A DNA stretch of 64,000 nt from Bacteroidaceae bacterium (GTDB taxonomy: Bacteria > Bacteroidota > Bacteroidia > Bacteroidales > Bacteroidaceae), in contig JAFZGA010000011.1 in the NCBI GenBank assembly GCA_017555585.1, forward strand, positions 1 to 64,000, given 5' to 3'. Each line of letters starts with the position of its first letter. Within the stretch, counting starts at the first letter, position 1. Shown here one piece after another: positions 20,229 to 29,274 of this stretch. The notes under the pieces are model-generated. The model had not been told where the DNA came from, did no database searches, and was given only the letters and a program-made list of their open reading frames with translations. The translations under genes and the position numbers were made by a program.

Positions 20229-20945
20229 TTATATCTGCTCTATTATATCCGGCAACATTTCAAGAGTTGGTATTACGCTTGTCGCTTCATGACCTTGAAC
20301 AATTGGTTCTTCTTCCCAACAGATGTTTTTCAACCAAACTGTCTTACATCCGAGTGTCGAAGAGGGGTATATGTCCTTGCGGTAGGAGTCGCCTATGACA
20401 ACAACGTCTTGTGCTTCTATTCCCATGCTTTCTACTCCCAAAGCAAAAAGAGCAGGATCCGGTTTGCGGATTCCTACGACCGACGATTCCACAATCTCAT
20501 TGAAAAATCCTGAAAGATTGAATTCCTCGAGTACAACCGGCATGTTGCCATAGAAGTTCGTCACGAGCACAAGAGGGTATCTGTATGACAATTTCTCAAT
20601 AATGCCACATGTGCTCTCCAATGTCTCTTTGACCTTGTTGTAACAACCGTCAGCAATTGTTTCTGCAACCTCTTTTTTGAAATTCTTTTCAGGAAAAATG
20701 TCACGCAGATAGTCAAAGTGAATGGCTATTTTTTTTCTCAGCAGTCTATGGAATGTATCGGTCTGCTCTATTACGGGATTTTTTGCAAGGAAGCGTTCGC
20801 CGTGGACATATGCTTCGCGATATGTGTCACGTGTGATGTCGATACCGGCCTTCTTGTATTGTTCCCATATGAATTCACCCCAATGTATTCCATTGGTGTC
20901 AATTGTGCCACCATAATCAAATATTATACCCTTAATTGAACTCAT
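20229..20945 (-). CDS. HAD-family hydrolase
   Basis: A 238-residue HAD hydrolase. Motif I is IFDYGGTID: the nucleophile Asp10 is present but the usual second Asp (DxD) is Gly, as in some HAD subgroups. Motif II is VTNFYG (Thr), motif III a Lys in GIRKPDPALF, and motif IV VVIGDSYRKDI. A helical cap lies between motifs I and II. It is the last gene of the seven-gene operon and overlaps the CDP-alcohol phosphotransferase gene by 14 bases, so translation is likely coupled. It may dephosphorylate a precursor or product of that pathway. Confidence 0.85.
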   Translation of the reverse strand: MSSIKGIIFDYGGTIDTNGIHWGEFIWEQYKKAGIDITRDTYREAYVHGERFLAKNPVIEQTDTFHRLLRKKIAIHFDYLRDIFPEKNFKKEVAETIADGCYNKVKETLESTCGIIEKLSYRYPLVLVTNFYGNMPVVLEEFNLSGFFNEIVESSVVGIRKPDPALFALGVESMGIEAQDVVVIGDSYRKDIYPSSTLGCKTVWLKNICWEEEPIVQGHEATSVIPTLEMLPDIIEQI

Positions 20946-21885
20946 ATCCCTGTTCTATTTTCTGTGTCAACCTTTTGCAGAGTGTCTCATGGCGGTATTG
21001 TGTATAAAAGAATAATGCCATAAGCACAACCATTTCAAAGAATATGTATATCCATAACTGGTCGATAAGCAATGCTATGAATAATGTTATGGCACGCGAA
21101 TTGAATGTAAGTATATTTGTGTATTTCATTAACGGCAAGCTTCCTTTGCGGAACTCTGTGCGTAGCGTTTGCGGAATCTCTGTGCCATATTTTGCATATA
21201 CCGTATTTATGAACTTCTGGAATCCGGGTGTCATTCTCTCCTGGTTCTCTACATAAGCGACATAGAAACTGAGGAACAGCTTCCAAAAGAATGTGGTGCG
21301 CCACGATGTCGCTTTGTACTCCTTTCTCTCCATGATGGAATTATGGAATTCGTGTCCGTTCTTTTCGTTGGAGAAATAGAGGTGTATGTTCCTGTAATAG
21401 TCTGCCAATTGGCATTGTGAACCATGTATCCAGAATCCGCAGAATGCAAGCAGGATCCATAGAATAACTCCCCAGTTATATTGCGGTGCGAACGGAATTG
21501 GGCTGTCGGTCTCTCTTACTGCAATGGCAAGATATATGAAGAAGAACCAGCAATCGCCGGCGAATCCGTCAAGAATGCGTCCCCACCGTGTCTTTTGTCC
21601 TGTTATGCGTGCAAGCTGTCCGTCAGTACTGTCGTATAGGTTCGCCCATATAAGTAGCAGGATGCCAAGCATGTTCCAACATAGGCTTTCCTGCATGAAG
21701 CATATGCCTGCGGCAACTCCCAGGAATATGGATGCTATGGTTATGACGTTGGGGTGAATGCCTCTGTTACGGAAAAACAGCGCGCATCGGAATCCTAAAG
21801 GACGGTAGAACCACATGTCAAGAAACTCCTCGGTGTCGACCGACTTTATGGACGCTCTGTATAACTCTTTGTCTTCCTCTTTCAT
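20932..21885 (-). CDS. CDP-alcohol phosphotransferase family membrane enzyme
   Basis: A 317-residue membrane protein with the family signature D-x2-D-G-x2-A-R-x8-G-x3-D-x3-D spelled DSTDGQLARITGQK ... GRILDGFAGD (residues ~85-111), all acidic metal ligands present. Several hydrophobic helices follow. Enzymes of this family move a phospho-alcohol from a CDP carrier to a second alcohol, making phospholipids or phosphodiester solutes. At 317 residues it is longer than PgsA or PssA, with an extra soluble loop (~150-230). Its tight packing with a nucleotidyltransferase and an ATP-grasp gene suggests that the CDP-linked donor is made by the neighbours. Substrates unknown. Confidence 0.85.
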   Translation of the reverse strand: MKEEDKELYRASIKSVDTEEFLDMWFYRPLGFRCALFFRNRGIHPNVITIASIFLGVAAGICFMQESLCWNMLGILLLIWANLYDSTDGQLARITGQKTRWGRILDGFAGDCWFFFIYLAIAVRETDSPIPFAPQYNWGVILWILLAFCGFWIHGSQCQLADYYRNIHLYFSNEKNGHEFHNSIMERKEYKATSWRTTFFWKLFLSFYVAYVENQERMTPGFQKFINTVYAKYGTEIPQTLRTEFRKGSLPLMKYTNILTFNSRAITLFIALLIDQLWIYIFFEMVVLMALFFYTQYRHETLCKRLTQKIEQGYEFN

Positions 21886-21891
21886 ATTGTG

Positions 21892-22710
21892 TTATCTCAA
21901 TGTATTCATTATTCTGTTGGCAATCTCTTTTGCCGCTTCGTCTCTTACGGATGAAAAGCTCGGGAAATCGTTTAAATCAATAAGCGAAATGTTCCCTTTT
22001 TCATCAACAATGCAATCTCCACCATATATGGTCAAGTTTGTCGCAGCTGCCGCTTTCGTTACGATATGCTGCATCTTGTCGGTATCGAAAGGGTAGTGCA
22101 TCGTCTCTCCGTTTATCTTTTCAAGCCCGAACTTGGTGCTCTCAACAACAGGGTAACTGTATGTGAAGTAGTTGTTTCCGATGCCGTAGAACTTTACAAT
22201 ATCGCCTTTGCAATGTGATGTATAGACAAAACTTTTTATGCCACGTTTGCGCATCTCCTCAATGGCTTTTATAGCTTCTTTGCTATTAGTGACATAGCAT
22301 ATGTCATTTTTATGGCAACTCCATCCCTCGCCACGCTTGATCCATGCTGGAAAAGTCAGGTTGTTGAAATCTTCCTCTTTTTCTACTATGCGGAACATCG
22401 GTTGAGGAATGCCGTGTTTTTCCAGGAGTTTCATGACTGTGATCCTGGAACAATTCTCTACCGATTCTGGAGTGTTGAAAACGGTGATGCCATGTTCTTG
22501 GGCAGCCTTGAGCTTCTTTAATACAACCGTACTTCTTGACATGTGGCATATTGCATCAATGTCTTGGGGTATCTCGCTGTTTTCGTCAATGGCAAAGACT
22601 GTAGCTCCCATTGCTGTAAGTTCCTTTGTAACGCACTCCAGGATGGCAGCATCATTGGCTGTCATGTTGGGAGAGTTTTCCGGGTTACGTGCTATTGTTA
22701 CAATCTTCAT
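21892..22710 (-). CDS. ATP-grasp (RimK-like) ligase
   Basis: A 272-residue protein of the ATP-grasp fold. The N-terminal domain (residues ~1-95) is followed by the ATP-binding subdomain (PAWIKRGEGWSCHKNDICYV, with the phosphate-contacting Lys) and a C-terminal Mg site ending GGDCIVDEKGNISLIDLND, which holds the Asp/Asn pair typical of RimK-like enzymes. It would join a carboxylate to an amine or other nucleophile using ATP. It starts inside the nucleotidyltransferase stop region (4-base overlap) and ends six bases before the CDP-alcohol phosphotransferase gene. I know no well-described pathway with this exact trio. Confidence 0.75.
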   Translation of the reverse strand: MKIVTIARNPENSPNMTANDAAILECVTKELTAMGATVFAIDENSEIPQDIDAICHMSRSTVVLKKLKAAQEHGITVFNTPESVENCSRITVMKLLEKHGIPQPMFRIVEKEEDFNNLTFPAWIKRGEGWSCHKNDICYVTNSKEAIKAIEEMRKRGIKSFVYTSHCKGDIVKFYGIGNNYFTYSYPVVESTKFGLEKINGETMHYPFDTDKMQHIVTKAAAATNLTIYGGDCIVDEKGNISLIDLNDFPSFSSVRDEAAKEIANRIMNTLR

Positions 22711-23408
22711 CTTTCTGCAATGAACAGTTCGGCTTTACGTATATCCTCGGCGTGGTCTATGTCTATGATTTTTCCAAGCGGGAATGCTTTCAGTTTCATT
22801 CCGCTCTCGACAAGCCTGCGCTGGAAATTGCGCATGCGGTGTGTACCGTCGGCCATGCATTGGTCAAGAATATCGAGCGCCTTGGGCGACAATCCGTATA
22901 TACCTCCCGAAATATAATGTGTTTCGGCTGTCGGGATGTCGCAGAATGCCGTTATCTCCATCTTTTCATCGGTAGCGATGTATAATGGCTTTTCATCATC
23001 GATGTAATCGGTAACAGCCATAATACCATCACCGTCGTACTCTTCGAATGTCTTTATGTAGCGTGCAAATTCATCTTCATGGAATAGTGTGTCTACCGTT
23101 GTCAGGCAGAATTTCTCCCCTTTAAGCAGTCCGCTCAGTGCATGCATGCTATGCATGGAACTTGGAGTGCTTTTTATGACTATGTTCAGTTCACACCCTG
23201 CATCAATGCTTTCAAGAAACTTGACAGTTTCGGGCTGTTGCTCGTTTACGATAATGTTGATGCTGCTTGCGCCGTTACGTACAAATATCCTTATGAGGCG
23301 TTCTATAATCGGAACGCCCTGAAGCTCGACCAATGGCTTGGGCTTCTCAATGCCTTCGCTGGCCAATCTCGATCCTTCACCTGCTGCTATTATGGCAAAT
23401 TTCATCAA
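22707..23408 (-). CDS. NTP-sugar/alcohol nucleotidyltransferase
   Basis: A 233-residue nucleotidyltransferase of the GT-A fold (NTP_transferase). The nucleotide loop AAGEGSRLASEGIEKPKPLVEL at residues ~7-28 has the G-x-G-x-R and K-P signature. LTTVDTLF near residue 100 provides the metal Asp. Resemblance to LicC/IspD/inositol-1-phosphate cytidylyltransferase-type proteins suggests CTP use, which would fit the CDP-alcohol phosphotransferase two genes on. It overlaps pdxA by four bases and the ATP-grasp gene by four bases. The activated alcohol is not known. Confidence 0.82.
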   Translation of the reverse strand: MMKFAIIAAGEGSRLASEGIEKPKPLVELQGVPIIERLIRIFVRNGASSINIIVNEQQPETVKFLESIDAGCELNIVIKSTPSSMHSMHALSGLLKGEKFCLTTVDTLFHEDEFARYIKTFEEYDGDGIMAVTDYIDDEKPLYIATDEKMEITAFCDIPTAETHYISGGIYGLSPKALDILDQCMADGTHRMRNFQRRLVESGMKLKAFPLGKIIDIDHAEDIRKAELFIAER

Positions 23409-24505
23409 TCCTCGTTGTCGGCTTGTTGCAGATTCAGACGGTTGCTGTCGTCACGTTTTTCGAAATACATCTTGCGCAATGGGTTACGGCGTGCATTGTC
23501 GTACATGTCGCGGTTGCGCATGATGTCTATAGCTGTATATATTGCCTGTCTGAATGAGTTCTCGTCAGCAACGCCTTTGCCTGCAATGTCGAGGGCTGTG
23601 CCGTGTGCAGGCGATGTACGTACAACAGATAGTCCTGCAGTGAAGTTTACACCGTCATTCATGGCAAGTGCCTTCATTGGAGCCAGGCCCTGATCGTGAT
23701 ACATTGCAAGTATAGCATCAAAGCATGCGTATTTACCACTTCCCATAAAACCGTCTACTGCAAATGGACCATAGCAGAAGATGCCATTGTCGTTCATCTT
23801 ACGTACTGTAGGTGCTATAACCTCTTGTTCTTCTGTACCAAGCAATCCGTTGTCACCTGCATGTGGGTTTAATGAAAGTACAGCAATCTTTGGTGCATCG
23901 ATGTTGAAGTCTCTCTTGAGGCTATTGTTCAGAAGGGTTATTTTCTCTTCAAGCAATTCCGGTGTTATTGCTGCTGGAATATCACGTAGCGGCATGTGTG
24001 ATGTTGCAACTGCAACCTTCATATCGCCACTGCACAGAATCATCAAAGCCTTCTCCTCGTTTCCGCAACGCTCCTGCAGATATTCTGTATGTCCCGGGAA
24101 ACTGAAGTTTTCGCTCTGTATTGAACTCTTGTTGATAGGGCATGTCACAAGCACGTCGATCTTGCCCTCCTGGCAATCCTTTGTTGCCATTTCAAGAGCC
24201 TGGAAAGCAGCCATTCCGGCTTCGTCAGTAATAGTTCCAAGTTCTATATGGAGTTCGTCGCTGTTGCAGTTGATGATGTTCAATTTCCCTGCCTGTGCTT
24301 CGCCGGCATGTCCTATGGCGTTGTATGGAGTCTCCATTTCGAGTGCCTTGCGGTGGTATGCGGCAGCTTTGGGTGAGCCATATACAATCGGTGTGCAGAT
24401 ATCGAACATTTCCTGGTTGTCGAATGCCTTGAGGATTATCTCGTAACCGATACCGTTTGTGTCACCCTGTGTGATTCCTACGCGGATATGTCTTTTGTCG
24501 CTCAT
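23405..24505 (-). CDS. pdxA: 4-hydroxythreonine-4-phosphate dehydrogenase
   Basis: A 366-residue PdxA that oxidises 4-phosphohydroxy-threonine with NAD in pyridoxal-phosphate synthesis. The N-terminal GITQGDTNGIGYEII block, TSHMPLRDIP and the metal-binding motif YHDQGLAPMKALAM, followed by VNFTAGLSVVRTSPAHGTA, are all typical. It lies 22 bases after the DUF4837 gene and overlaps the nucleotidyltransferase gene by four bases, so its expression is linked to the unknown phospho-alcohol pathway. Whether that link is functional (B6 or an alternative PdxA substrate) is open. Confidence 0.94.
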   Translation of the reverse strand: MSDKRHIRVGITQGDTNGIGYEIILKAFDNQEMFDICTPIVYGSPKAAAYHRKALEMETPYNAIGHAGEAQAGKLNIINCNSDELHIELGTITDEAGMAAFQALEMATKDCQEGKIDVLVTCPINKSSIQSENFSFPGHTEYLQERCGNEEKALMILCSGDMKVAVATSHMPLRDIPAAITPELLEEKITLLNNSLKRDFNIDAPKIAVLSLNPHAGDNGLLGTEEQEVIAPTVRKMNDNGIFCYGPFAVDGFMGSGKYACFDAILAMYHDQGLAPMKALAMNDGVNFTAGLSVVRTSPAHGTALDIAGKGVADENSFRQAIYTAIDIMRNRDMYDNARRNPLRKMYFEKRDDSNRLNLQQADNED

Positions 24506-26691: not shown

Positions 26692-26763
26692 ATGCAAAAA
26701 AGTGATTTTGTTTCTATAACTATAATTAAATTATACTTTTATGGCTCAATTAATGTTGTAGTT

Positions 26764-26796
26764 TTTGTATGTTTGCCTTGCTTTTTGCTACTTTTG
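26764..26796 (+). promoter_or_regulatory. Promoter of the GT2-HIT fusion gene
   Basis: TTTG (26764-26767), a 21-base spacer and TACTTTTG (26789-26796) match the Bacteroidetes consensus exactly. The chosen ATG at 26857 is 60 bases downstream, which also supports that start over an in-frame upstream Met at 26692, which would lie before the promoter. Confidence 0.65.
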
Positions 26797-26856
26797 CGGA
26801 AAAGCTTGACAAACATTTGCCTGTTTGTCATTAATTTTGTATCAAACAAAGTGATT

Positions 26857-29274
26857 ATGACAGAACATACTATTGAAATATTCATGCCGTTGGGTGCAAC
26901 GGACGATATATCATTATTGACAGAACGTTTATGTAAAAATGCTTCATTGAGCCATTTGTGGCTTTGGTCTGCTGGGGCATACGAAGGAGAACTGCCCGAC
27001 AATACAACATTGCTTCCGGTAGATTCTTTGACAAGAACATCCGTTTTCAAAGATATGGCAGAACGTGCCTCGGCTGATTTTGTCCTTTATTTGGCAAAAC
27101 CATATACTGACATTGATTCTGAAGCATTGAATGCGCTCTGTGAGACCATTCCCCAAAATGCTTCAATGGCATATGCCAATTATCGTAAAGTTGTCGATGA
27201 AAAGGTGATAGATGCGCCCGTGATAGATTGTCTCGAAGGTGCTTTACGCAACGATTTTGACTTTGGTCCGGCACTGCTTTTCAGGACATCAGCATTGAAA
27301 CAATACAGTGCAATGCAACTCGATGATTATGATTATGCCGGTTTCTATCAGTTGCGTCTGGCTCTTGGCCGTTTGGGTGAAATATACCGTTTCGACGGAT
27401 ATCTTTCACGCGAATATGAAAGTGACAATCGCAAGAGCGGTGAAAAGCAGTTCGATTATGTCAACCCGGCTCAACGTAGCGTGCAGCTGGAGATGGAGCG
27501 TGCATGCACCTTTCATTTGAAAGCCACAGGTGCATGGTTGCCCCCACTTAAATACAACGGAATAGATCTTTTCCAAGGTGAATTCCCGGTAGAAGCATCG
27601 GTGGTTATACCTGTGCTTAACCGTGAATCGACTATTGCCGATGCTATAAAATCGGTACTTGCACAGGAGACCTCATTCAAATTCAATATCCTTGTTGTCG
27701 ATAACCATTCAACTGATAACACTTCGTCGATCATAGACTCCTTTGATGATGAAAGAGTGGTGCATATTGTTCCCGAAAGCAACGCGCTTGGCATAGGTGG
27801 CTGCTGGAATCTTGCGGTCAACGACAAACGATGCGGACGATTTGCCGTACAACTCGACAGCGATGATATTTACAGCAGCGAACATACATTGCAGAAGATA
27901 GTTGACGGATTCTATAGCCAACAGTGCGCAATGCTTGTGGGTACATATCGTATATGCGATTTTGAACTGAATACCTTGCCTCCTGGGGTAATAGACCATC
28001 GTGAATGGAGTGAGGACAATGGCAGGAACAACGCCCTGCGTATAAACGGCCTGGGTGCTCCACGAGCTTTTTATACGCCGGTTATCCGTAAAGTGGGATT
28101 CCCTAATGTGAGTTATGGTGAGGATTATGCTGTCGGATTGCAGATATCGCGCAATTACCGTATAGGCCGAATATATGATGTCCTTTATCTTTGTCGACGT
28201 TGGGGAGGCAATTCTGATGCCGCACTGTCGCACGAAAAGGTAAATGCCAACAATCTGTATAAAGATACATTGCGTACAGCAGAATTCAAGGCAAGACAAG
28301 AGATGATGAAAACTATGGAAATGCCGTCGCAGTCAGTATTGAACCTGTTTTTTGACCGACAGCTTGCTGTATGGCCGGAAACCAAAGCCCGTTTTGCCAA
28401 TCTTGATAATGTGCGCTTGCGTCAACTTGAAAATGGCATTATGTTGCAATATAATCCGTCGCGTGCTGTCTCCACAGGTGCAAAGGTGGACAGCGAGTCG
28501 CTGAAGAACCGCAAATGCTTCTTGTGTGGTGAGAACCGTCCTGCACAGCAAATTGTAGAGAGTGCCTTAGGCTGTTTTGATATACTTGTAAATCCTTTCC
28601 CGATATTGCCGCGCCATTTTACGTTGGCATGGAAAGAACATGTACCACAGGTGCTTGAAAAAATGTATTCCGACATGTTGCTGCTCGCTAATGAGTGGCA
28701 AGAAATGGCGTTGTTCTACAATGGTGCGATGTGTGGGGCTTCTGCTCCCGACCATGCACATCTGCAGGCGGTACGCAGGAACGATATCCCTTTGCTGTCA
28801 GGGGAGTGGCGCAGAATTGTCGATGAAAACCTTGAACCGCTGTTTATGAGAGACGGTGCCGGTATTTACAGGGCTGGCGGATATGTCGTGCCATTGTTCG
28901 AGGTGCGTGCAGACAGCGTAAGCAAATCGGTAGAACTGTTGTCGCGTCTGTTGTCGGCAATTCCTTGTCATGACGGTGAAGCTGAACCAAGAATGAATTC
29001 AATATCATATTATGAGCGCGGTGAGGGTTGGGTTACCATTATCATCCCTCGCTCCAAACATCGCCCAGACTGTTATAGTACCGTTATGGACAATGGACGT
29101 ATGGTCAGCCCGGGTACACTTGATATGGCAGGTTTGATGGTCACTCCGCTTGAAAAGGATTTTCTTGAAATGACTTCTGATGAGGCTATGGCAATCATGA
29201 ACGAGGTTGCAATAGATGATGATATGATTGCTGTTATTATTGAAAATGTAGTTTCTTGCCATGAGGAGTGTTGA
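26857..29274 (+). CDS. Glycosyltransferase family 2 fused to a HIT-type nucleotide phosphorylase domain (DUF4922)
   Basis: An 805-residue protein. Residues ~1-240 have a degenerate GT-A-like layout. Residues ~240-500 are a clear GT2 domain, with SVVIPVLNRESTIADAI, the VVDNHSTDNT block and the donor-binding VQLDSDD. Residues ~530-800 carry DUF4922, with CFLCGENRP (possible metal site), NPFPILPRHFTLAWKEH and CGASAPDHAHLQAV. The last has the HxHxQ motif of the HIT/GalT superfamily as used by Ap4A and GDP-hexose phosphorylases. I see no signal peptide. It overlaps the SpoIID-like gene by 14 bases. Combining a glycosyltransferase with a nucleotide-sugar phosphorylase-like domain is unusual; the reaction is unknown. 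Confidence 0.8.
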   Translation: MTEHTIEIFMPLGATDDISLLTERLCKNASLSHLWLWSAGAYEGELPDNTTLLPVDSLTRTSVFKDMAERASADFVLYLAKPYTDIDSEALNALCETIPQNASMAYANYRKVVDEKVIDAPVIDCLEGALRNDFDFGPALLFRTSALKQYSAMQLDDYDYAGFYQLRLALGRLGEIYRFDGYLSREYESDNRKSGEKQFDYVNPAQRSVQLEMERACTFHLKATGAWLPPLKYNGIDLFQGEFPVEASVVIPVLNRESTIADAIKSVLAQETSFKFNILVVDNHSTDNTSSIIDSFDDERVVHIVPESNALGIGGCWNLAVNDKRCGRFAVQLDSDDIYSSEHTLQKIVDGFYSQQCAMLVGTYRICDFELNTLPPGVIDHREWSEDNGRNNALRINGLGAPRAFYTPVIRKVGFPNVSYGEDYAVGLQISRNYRIGRIYDVLYLCRRWGGNSDAALSHEKVNANNLYKDTLRTAEFKARQEMMKTMEMPSQSVLNLFFDRQLAVWPETKARFANLDNVRLRQLENGIMLQYNPSRAVSTGAKVDSESLKNRKCFLCGENRPAQQIVESALGCFDILVNPFPILPRHFTLAWKEHVPQVLEKMYSDMLLLANEWQEMALFYNGAMCGASAPDHAHLQAVRRNDIPLLSGEWRRIVDENLEPLFMRDGAGIYRAGGYVVPLFEVRADSVSKSVELLSRLLSAIPCHDGEAEPRMNSISYYERGEGWVTIIIPRSKHRPDCYSTVMDNGRMVSPGTLDMAGLMVTPLEKDFLEMTSDEAMAIMNEVAIDDDMIAVIIENVVSCHEEC

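Follow-up and report, generated by a model that had tools for sequence, protein, structure and literature searches.

The present analysis concerns four adjoining genes in a 64,000-nucleotide stretch of DNA from a Bacteroidaceae bacterium (assembly GCA_017555585.1, contig JAFZGA010000011.1, positions 1 to 64,000; hereafter the window). They lie on the minus strand and, read in the sense of transcription, the open reading frame (ORF) list gives the order pdxA, NTP transferase, ATP-grasp protein, CDP-alcohol phosphotransferase (CDPOH) and HAD hydrolase. The NTP transferase (22707-23408; PF00483, 47.9 bits) is a putative CTP:inositol-phosphate cytidylyltransferase, the ATP-grasp protein (21892-22710) a putative inositol-phosphate kinase with a RimK-type ligase as the alternative, the CDPOH (20932-21885; PF01066, 45.7 bits) a putative CDP-inositol:dihydroceramide inositolphosphotransferase with a displaced fourth Asp, and the HAD protein (20229-20945; PF00702, 54.6 bits; motif I FDYGGTxD) a putative inositol-phosphate or phosphoinositide phosphatase. 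The ATP-grasp protein matched PF08443 (RimK) barely over threshold, with 22.9 bits against a cut-off of 21 (1.9 bits), and none of the four proteins reached an equivalog cut-off in NCBIfam (this covers the top 25 out of 37 matches for the HAD protein and out of 32 for the NTP transferase). The Pfam matches support all four enzyme types, and the coordinates agree with the close packing given in the initial annotation, with overlaps of 14 bases between HAD and CDPOH, 4 bases between ATP-grasp and NTP transferase and 4 bases between NTP transferase and pdxA, and a gap of 6 bases between CDPOH and ATP-grasp. The NTP transferase ORF is listed from a TTG at 23408, with an in-frame ATG at 23405 (TTGATG); the ATG is likely to be the start, as it matches the starts of relatives better; it would overlap the pdxA stop by one base.

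An NTP transferase, a CDPOH and a HAD protein beside a myo-inositol-phosphate synthase (MIPS) were described by Heaver et al. 2022 (PMC9246714) as a predicted alternative inositol-lipid cluster of Phocaeicola and Prevotella, so that the genes examined here, first taken for an undescribed pathway, are this already predicted inositol-lipid route. In a 2023 review (PMC10191378), the alternative route is still treated as an in silico prediction that is not fully characterized. The B. vulgatus cluster is given as BVU_RS13095 (NTP transferase), BVU_RS13105 (CDPOH) and BVU_RS13115 (HAD), with MIPS near and an LPG-synthase-like gene in the vicinity, and the same paper reports a CDPOH-HAD fusion as well as phosphoinositol dihydroceramide (PI-DHC) among the lipids of B. 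vulgatus and P. veroralis (PMC9246714). The window resembles this cluster in holding the NTP transferase, CDPOH and HAD genes together. It differs in that the LPG-synthase-like gene was not found in any of seven congener loci and in the placing of MIPS: among 36 congeners, 34 have the ATP-grasp gene, 35 MIPS and 33 both, and in 31 of these 33 MIPS is on another contig, the two exceptions being G021, where it lies in the cluster (L146), and G028. The assignment of the cluster to inositol lipids is made with high confidence.

What is new is the ATP-grasp gene, which is a nearly fixed member of the predicted inositol-lipid cluster. The initial annotation had pointed to the ATP-grasp protein as the odd member of the set and to a phosphodiester formed from a CDP-activated alcohol, and both points are upheld. 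Judging from locus numbering, the B. vulgatus counterpart would be BVU_RS13100, a gene left unnamed in PMC9246714, the main text of which has no occurrence of "ATP-grasp". None of the matches listed from the open-licence PMC literature ties an ATP-grasp protein to an inositol or sphingolipid route of Bacteroides or Prevotella.

The ATP-grasp protein was present in 39 of 61 genomes (the window's own and 60 relatives), including 35 of the 37 genomes of the window's genus, its own among them. In 30 ATP-grasp loci, window included, the NTP transferase, CDPOH, HAD and pdxA genes each adjoined it in 29, which argues against a chance association; the exceptions were L026, cut by a contig end, and L031, without NTP transferase and pdxA. 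When GTDB genome contigs were scanned with alignment A1, at least 558 relatives emerged, of which the best 80 were kept as loci (some cut by contig ends), from Phocaeicola, Prevotella, Parabacteroides, Bacteroides, Tannerella, Muribaculaceae and many metagenome-assembled genomes. Within these 80 loci, the NTP transferase was found in 78 (absent from L057 and L096), CDPOH in 78 (absent from L106 and L123), HAD in 77 (absent from L066, L106 and L123), MIPS in 32 and the LPG-synthase-like membrane protein in 29, counts that start from the ATP-grasp gene and cannot show that it is required. With stretches of >20 kb each, L057, L066 and L096 are real exceptions in cis. P. vulgatus itself is not among the 80 loci; seven named Phocaeicola species share the order pdxA, NTP transferase, ATP-grasp, CDPOH, LPG-synthase-like, HAD, with MIPS 2-3 kb beyond HAD in five of them, and their proteins compare with those of the window at 57-61% (NTP transferase), 51-57% (CDPOH), 44-47% (HAD) and 37-40% (ATP-grasp). 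The cluster genes are likewise followed by MIPS, its family confirmed by a PF07994 search, in L033, L034 and L036, and the LPG-synthase-like gene sits between CDPOH and HAD in L033 and L036. Across the phylum, the ATP-grasp profile matched 14 of 375 genomes, own included (E <= 1e-20), the matches beyond Bacteroidales being G476 (same class, other order) and ten genomes from other classes, where they fall into three families; all 12 loci from outside the order (L180-L191) contained NTP transferase, ATP-grasp, CDPOH and HAD genes. No ITPK or ATP-grasp relatives were confirmed among viral contigs. The four-gene set is conserved across Bacteroidales and thus co-occurs outside the genome in which it was first noted.

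The distribution of the ATP-grasp gene follows that of MIPS. In an evenly drawn sample of 247 Bacteroidales genomes (246 after the window's own was excluded), strong matches to the ATP-grasp protein were found in 32, to MIPS in 42, to CDPOH in 35 and to a BT1523-like phosphatidylinositol-phosphate (PIP) synthase in 16, the last counted at E ~1e-75 or better (six of the 16 over the curated cut-off, 107 genomes matching at E <= 0.001). Five ATP-grasp matches with E values of 1.6e-10 to 2.8e-4 (G065, G168, G227, G237, G134) were left out as not of this family. MIPS was present in 30 of the 32 genomes with the ATP-grasp gene and in 12 of the 214 without it (Fisher P = 1.5e-26, uncorrected for shared descent). 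The 42 MIPS genomes comprise 25 with ATP-grasp only, 11 with the BT1523-like enzyme only, five with both and one (G266) with neither; since the BT1523-like enzyme is present in 11 of the 12 MIPS genomes without ATP-grasp, it is for the most part the CDP-inositol route that the ATP-grasp gene accompanies. CDPOH lay <=500 nt from ATP-grasp in 30 of the 32 genomes and MIPS/Ino1 within 10 kb in 27. Seen from CDPOH (40 loci at E < 1e-60), MIPS/Ino1 was within 10 kb in 26 loci, every one of which had ATP-grasp beside CDPOH; the other 14 included four with ATP-grasp and MIPS elsewhere in the genome (G262, G247, G169, G141) and ten without ATP-grasp, which reduce to eight distinct loci, as that of G272 is split over contigs and two represent a duplicate stretch of G233.

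The occurrence of non-orthologous synthases within one and the same type of cluster is the strongest single indication that inositol phosphate is what enters the pathway. G201 is without a PF07994 MIPS and carries after HAD a mycothiol-type inositol-3-phosphate synthase (TIGR03450, 374 bits with an equivalog cut-off of 638; PF01658, 71 bits). G476 (completeness rating 100%) carries the whole set of genes and, next to HAD, a PfkB-family kinase, with no PF01658 match. The case for this kinase as a stand-in for MIPS was weakened by the finding of PfkB relatives in seven of the 80 loci, five of them with MIPS. In six of the seven named Phocaeicola species and in L087, these relatives are encoded on the opposite strand, with HAD on one side and MIPS on the other (L062:14875-15741, minus strand; same place in L065, L072, L074, L080, L081 and L087), and the G476 kinase is at L187:3114-4049; the PfkB-family kinase is a recurrent neighbor and a candidate inositol kinase. 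The ATP-grasp protein could itself be an inositol kinase that salvages free inositol and feeds the NTP transferase beside or instead of MIPS, which would fit the lack of any MIPS match in G476 and G272 and, as such a kinase could feed either route, the cluster of G165 discussed below. We consider this very unlikely, since the ATP-grasp gene co-occurs with MIPS rather than replacing it, the PfkB-family protein is the likelier inositol kinase, and ITPK-type kinases do not use free inositol, which is no substrate for the inositol-phosphate kinase families (PMC8024741).

The initial annotation had also suggested that pdxA (23405-24505, minus strand; PF04166, 365 bits; TIGR00557 above cut-off) supplies or shares a hydroxythreonine-type phosphate. 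This was rejected, as pdxA is one of three ordinary neighbors (pdxA in 53 of the 80 loci, rlmN in 42 and DUF4837 in 35) and is not seen in 27 loci, some of which are cut by contig ends. It probably stands outside the pathway, whose alcohol is most probably the inositol phosphate that MIPS makes rather than a hydroxythreonine phosphate of the PdxA type. Elsewhere in the window, a long ORF at 26692-29274 has, by eye, a glycosyltransferase-like part and a C-terminal part with a Cys-x-x-Cys motif.

Gene fusions bind the ATP-grasp protein to its neighbors. The NTP transferase and ATP-grasp protein are fused as one ORF in G059 (513 aa) and G141 (541 aa), and the NTP transferase, ATP-grasp protein and CDPOH as one 820-aa ORF in G201, the three genomes belonging to three different families. 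Conversely, the eight distinct CDPOH loci without ATP-grasp (L136, L140, L141, L142, L144, L145 (= L157), L148 and L156) had no HAD or MIPS relatives at E <= 1e-4 in the fetched stretch; having been chosen for lacking ATP-grasp, these controls are informative only for the missing HAD and MIPS. Five of the eight contain a glycerol-3-phosphate-cytidylyltransferase-like gene, a short-chain dehydrogenase/reductase and an acyltransferase, the G167 locus contains an IspD-like gene, and four of the control genomes (G262, G220, G233, G038) carry a complete ATP-grasp cluster at another locus. Because CDPOH loci without ATP-grasp are also without HAD and linked MIPS, ATP-grasp and HAD go with inositol and not with CDP-alcohol transfer as such, G165 being the exception. 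The paralogous CDPOH set at L140:5650-9701 and in L142, L145 (= L157), L148 and L156, in some cases with an LPG-synthase-like gene, is a candidate for making the phosphoglycerol dihydroceramide that certain Bacteroidales are reported to contain; L145 and L157 are two contigs of G233 with the same 13.8-kb stretch at 100% identity, probably an assembly duplicate. A further locus, in G075 (L158:620-3144), has an NTP transferase fused to a CDPOH piece, no ATP-grasp gene, an internally deleted HAD remnant and no MIPS found; it was set aside as a control without ATP-grasp, as it looks decayed or misassembled.

In the scheme proposed in PMC9246714, in favor of which the CDPOH-HAD fusion reported there counts, the NTP transferase would form CDP-inositol from the MIPS product, CDPOH would make a diacylglycerol-based phosphatidylinositol (PI-DAG) and HAD would convert PI-DAG into PI-DHC, which would leave the ATP-grasp protein as a side enzyme. 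This appears improbable, because the presence of ATP-grasp beside CDPOH in all 26 MIPS-linked loci, with fusions in three families, is too tight for a side enzyme. To our knowledge, a HAD protein acting as a lipid transferase is without precedent, which also counts against it. A PI-DAG intermediate is awkward given one lipidome of B. vulgatus (now Phocaeicola), which reports ceramide phosphoinositol and no diacyl phosphatidylinositol detected (PMC10056535); in view of these lipid data, dihydroceramide as direct acceptor is on balance favored over a PI-DAG intermediate, the matter not being settled.

The catalytic residues of the ATP-grasp protein look intact at the sequence level. In alignment A2 (79 sequences: the window and 78 of the 80 loci, L070 being left out and L099 excluded by a frame check), 31 columns are invariant, including K125, K173, D232, D245 and N247. 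The DxN metal motif, within the family pattern IDxND[FW]PSF, occurs in 79/79 sequences, so that the Glu-x-Asn motif of RimK-type ligases is found in none; four ITPKs compared have DxNxxP, whereas the E. coli ligases have ExN (RimK EVN, DdlB EAN, GshB EIN). Residues D232, D245 and N247 would thus provide the Asp...Asp-x-Asn metal site of ATP-grasp inositol-phosphate kinases, for which Asp321, Asp333 and Asn335 are used in the inositol pyrophosphate kinase Asp1 (PMC9765450). Lys173 (KFYG) aligns with a Lys of human ITPK1 and an Arg of RimK. A profile search of solved structures returned the Entamoeba ITPK (5.6e-4), Arabidopsis ITPK4 (8.2e-4) and human ITPK1 (2.4e-3; 18% identity), the last of which is reported to act on inositol 3-phosphate (PMC8024741). 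The window protein therefore shares with the ITPK family (PF05770) the ATP-grasp type, the D...DxNxxP motif, the Lys at the place of Lys173 and the nearest PDB sequences, and differs from it at the level of Pfam membership, no PF05770 match being obtained. A single-sequence PDB search had as top matches designed proteins aligned over one helix, taken as spurious, with human ITPK1 at 0.03-0.04. Overall, the catalytic signature leans to a kinase and away from a carboxylate ligase, and the probability that the protein is an inositol-phosphate kinase is put just short of even.

These findings suggest a CDP-inositol branch of inositol-sphingolipid synthesis. MIPS, which is cluster-linked in most sampled genera and located elsewhere in most species of the window's genus, would supply myo-inositol 3-phosphate; the ATP-grasp kinase, of ITPK-like build, would phosphorylate it once more, plausibly at position 1; the NTP transferase would activate the newly added phosphate with CTP; CDPOH would pass the phospho-inositol on to a lipid alcohol of the membrane, most likely straight to dihydroceramide; and HAD would remove the leftover 3-phosphate to give PI-DHC. 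The product of MIPS is D-inositol 3-phosphate, direct activation of which would give a D-3-linked lipid, the usual linkage being D-1. A phosphate placed by MIPS on the wrong carbon would explain why inositol alone calls for both a kinase and a phosphatase; a 1-kinase together with a 3-phosphatase would yield the usual D-1 linkage. We infer all reactions, their order, the kinase chemistry and the phosphate position from what was observed, namely the gene set, its conservation, the tie to MIPS, the fusions and the conserved catalytic residues, and the full scheme is accordingly tentative and somewhat unlikely to hold in every step; our estimates rest mainly on the MIPS linkage, the fusions and the metal motif. 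It is doubtful, if conceivable, that the family is a dedicated ATP-grasp inositol-phosphate kinase of Bacteroidota outside the eukaryotic ITPK family, with the bisphosphate passing through CDP-inositol 3-phosphate and ceramide phosphoinositide to PI-DHC.

Several observations weigh against this CDP-inositol scheme. No MIPS was found in the window's own genome (55.5% complete) or in G272 (93% complete, fragmented), which has the ATP-grasp gene. G165 carries a diverged ATP-grasp copy (L139:4123-4968) that retains 26 of the 31 invariants, with D232 changed to Glu and the KFGLE-NG stretch altered, and that adjoins MIPS, a PI-DHC synthase, a BT1523-like enzyme and a GtrA-like gene in a BT-like cluster. 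This genome has no CDPOH relative (E <= 0.001), no HAD relative in the locus and weak NTP transferase matches only (best 1.2e-11), a context which fits a role on something that both routes share and which an NTP-coupled kinase does not explain. An ATP-grasp enzyme that phosphorylates the finished inositol lipid to phosphoinositides, with HAD as the matching phosphatase, would account for this copy, as both routes end in the same lipid, and for a kinase-phosphatase pair tied to inositol. It is distinctly improbable, given that the fusions to the soluble NTP transferase step point upstream, that the G165 locus is without a HAD relative, and that no phosphorylated inositol lipid is reported for ATP-grasp-bearing species in the lipid data of PMC9246714 and PMC10056535.

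Whole-length comparisons of the ATP-grasp protein belong with these points. The profile search that returned the ITPKs also returned the ATP-grasp protein 7drm, which we take to be the PsnB ligase, at 1.1e-3 and, below human ITPK1, 3vpb at 0.028. Alignment with hhalign scored RimK (36.7) above human ITPK1 (30.5), a second ITPK (16.7), DdlB (6.0) and GshB (3.5). In NCBIfam, MptN (4e-9) and rimK_fam (4e-8) were matched far below cut-off (33.1 vs 143.4 for TIGR00768), and across the family Pfam RimK (PF08443) matches 4/79 members and ITPK (PF05770) 2/79 (E <= 0.01). As RimK is as good as or better than ITPK, whole-length similarity does not decide between kinase and ligase. The carboxylate ligation envisaged in the initial annotation is therefore possible and not favored. 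Such a RimK-like enzyme would join an amino acid or carboxylate to the inositol head group or to a carrier, giving an acylated inositol lipid. We judge this rather unlikely: among the five proteins compared, RimK matches best over the whole length, PF08443 is the sole over-cut-off Pfam match of the window protein, and a class-III aminotransferase and an inositol-2-dehydrogenase-like gene that could supply an amine occur in 8 of the 12 loci outside the order, but these two genes are found in 0/80 Bacteroidales loci, the protein has DxN and Lys173 where RimK has ExN and Arg, it stays below the NCBIfam cut-off, and the lipids of B. vulgatus and P. veroralis are reported as PI-DHC (PMC9246714).

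Same-type clusters from families f128 and f146, outside the class (L180-L185 and L188-L190), show additional genes, with the aminotransferase and a Gfo/Idh dehydrogenase in eight of the nine loci (not L183), MlaE-, MlaF- and MlaD-like lipid transport genes in eight (not L188) and two tandem ATP-grasp genes in four. The hidden Markov model libraries were scanned with the L181 copies and one L182 aminotransferase only. This suggests an amino-inositol lipid that is moved between membranes.

The other three proteins were examined in sequences with >=85% coverage and no overlong ORF (76 NTP transferases, 76 CDPOHs and 75 HAD proteins, window included) and, for profile searches, in alignments A3 (the window and every second CDPOH sequence, 38 of 75) and A4 (the window and 36 NTP transferase sequences, every second of 75 minus L098 and L090). 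In the 37 sequences of A4, R14, K24 and D106 are invariant. The A4 profile matched a glucose-1-phosphate thymidylyltransferase best (3.4e-9) and next 4jd0, the T. maritima inositol-1-phosphate cytidylyltransferase (PMC12275187), at 8e-9; by this measure the NTP transferase is no nearer the inositol enzyme than the sugar enzyme, a further point against the scheme. The A3 profile matched AF2299 (4e-12) and the archaeal cytidylyltransferase/inositolphosphotransferase 4mnd (5e-4). The CDPOH signature DxxDGxxAR...GxxxDxxxD has seven of eight residues in place and is not complete, contrary to the initial annotation: the position of the fourth Asp is Gly110, with Asp111 next. Of the 76 members, 73 carry Gly there and none Asp, and 74 have an Asp one residue later. 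On its sequence, the CDPOH is thus without the canonical catalytic-base position, another point against the scheme. The fourth Asp (D4) is described as the putative catalytic base, and its D-to-N change leaves a related enzyme almost inactive (PMC4634129). The catalytic mechanism of this CDPOH family would have to account for the displacement. The HAD protein has D10, G12, T14 and D16 in 75/75 sequences. Most HAD phosphatases carry an acid/base Asp in place of Gly12, which also tells against the scheme, while some Gly-bearing ones are phosphatases.

Compared with known systems, the proposed branch shares with the B. thetaiotaomicron route to phosphatidylinositol and PI-DHC (BT_1522-1526) its start at MIPS and its end in PI-DHC, and differs in that CDP-diacylglycerol and BT_1523 are used there, the window CDPOH scoring 19 bits with the NF052561 cut-off at 350. 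The IPCT/DIPPS route of (hyper)thermophiles likewise combines a nucleotidyltransferase and a CDP-alcohol phosphotransferase acting on inositol, with weak profile matches; in contrast, the window genes are separate and accompanied by ATP-grasp and HAD, and scores of 41.9 and 22.9 bits for NF041135 lie under its 580-bit cut-off. In the Caulobacter CPG2 pathway with CpgD, a cytidylyltransferase also supplies a CDP-activated head group for a ceramide phospholipid, whereas the head group there is phosphoglycerate and the text that describes it does not name an ATP-grasp protein (PMC12275187).

The published scheme looks incomplete, in that it omits a nearly constant companion enzyme, and its HAD step may be misassigned. 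We know of no eukaryotic counterpart of the route proposed here. Inositol-phosphate kinases have been discussed for eukaryotes and Lokiarchaeota (PMC8024741), and should the ATP-grasp protein prove to be one of them, it would be a dedicated bacterial example of that kind of enzyme. Inositol lipids of gut Bacteroidota resemble host lipids and affect fitness in the host (PMC9246714). If the scheme is true, the phosphodiester would be moved from D-3 to D-1, so that the inositol sphingolipids of gut bacteria would share the head-group stereochemistry of those of the host.

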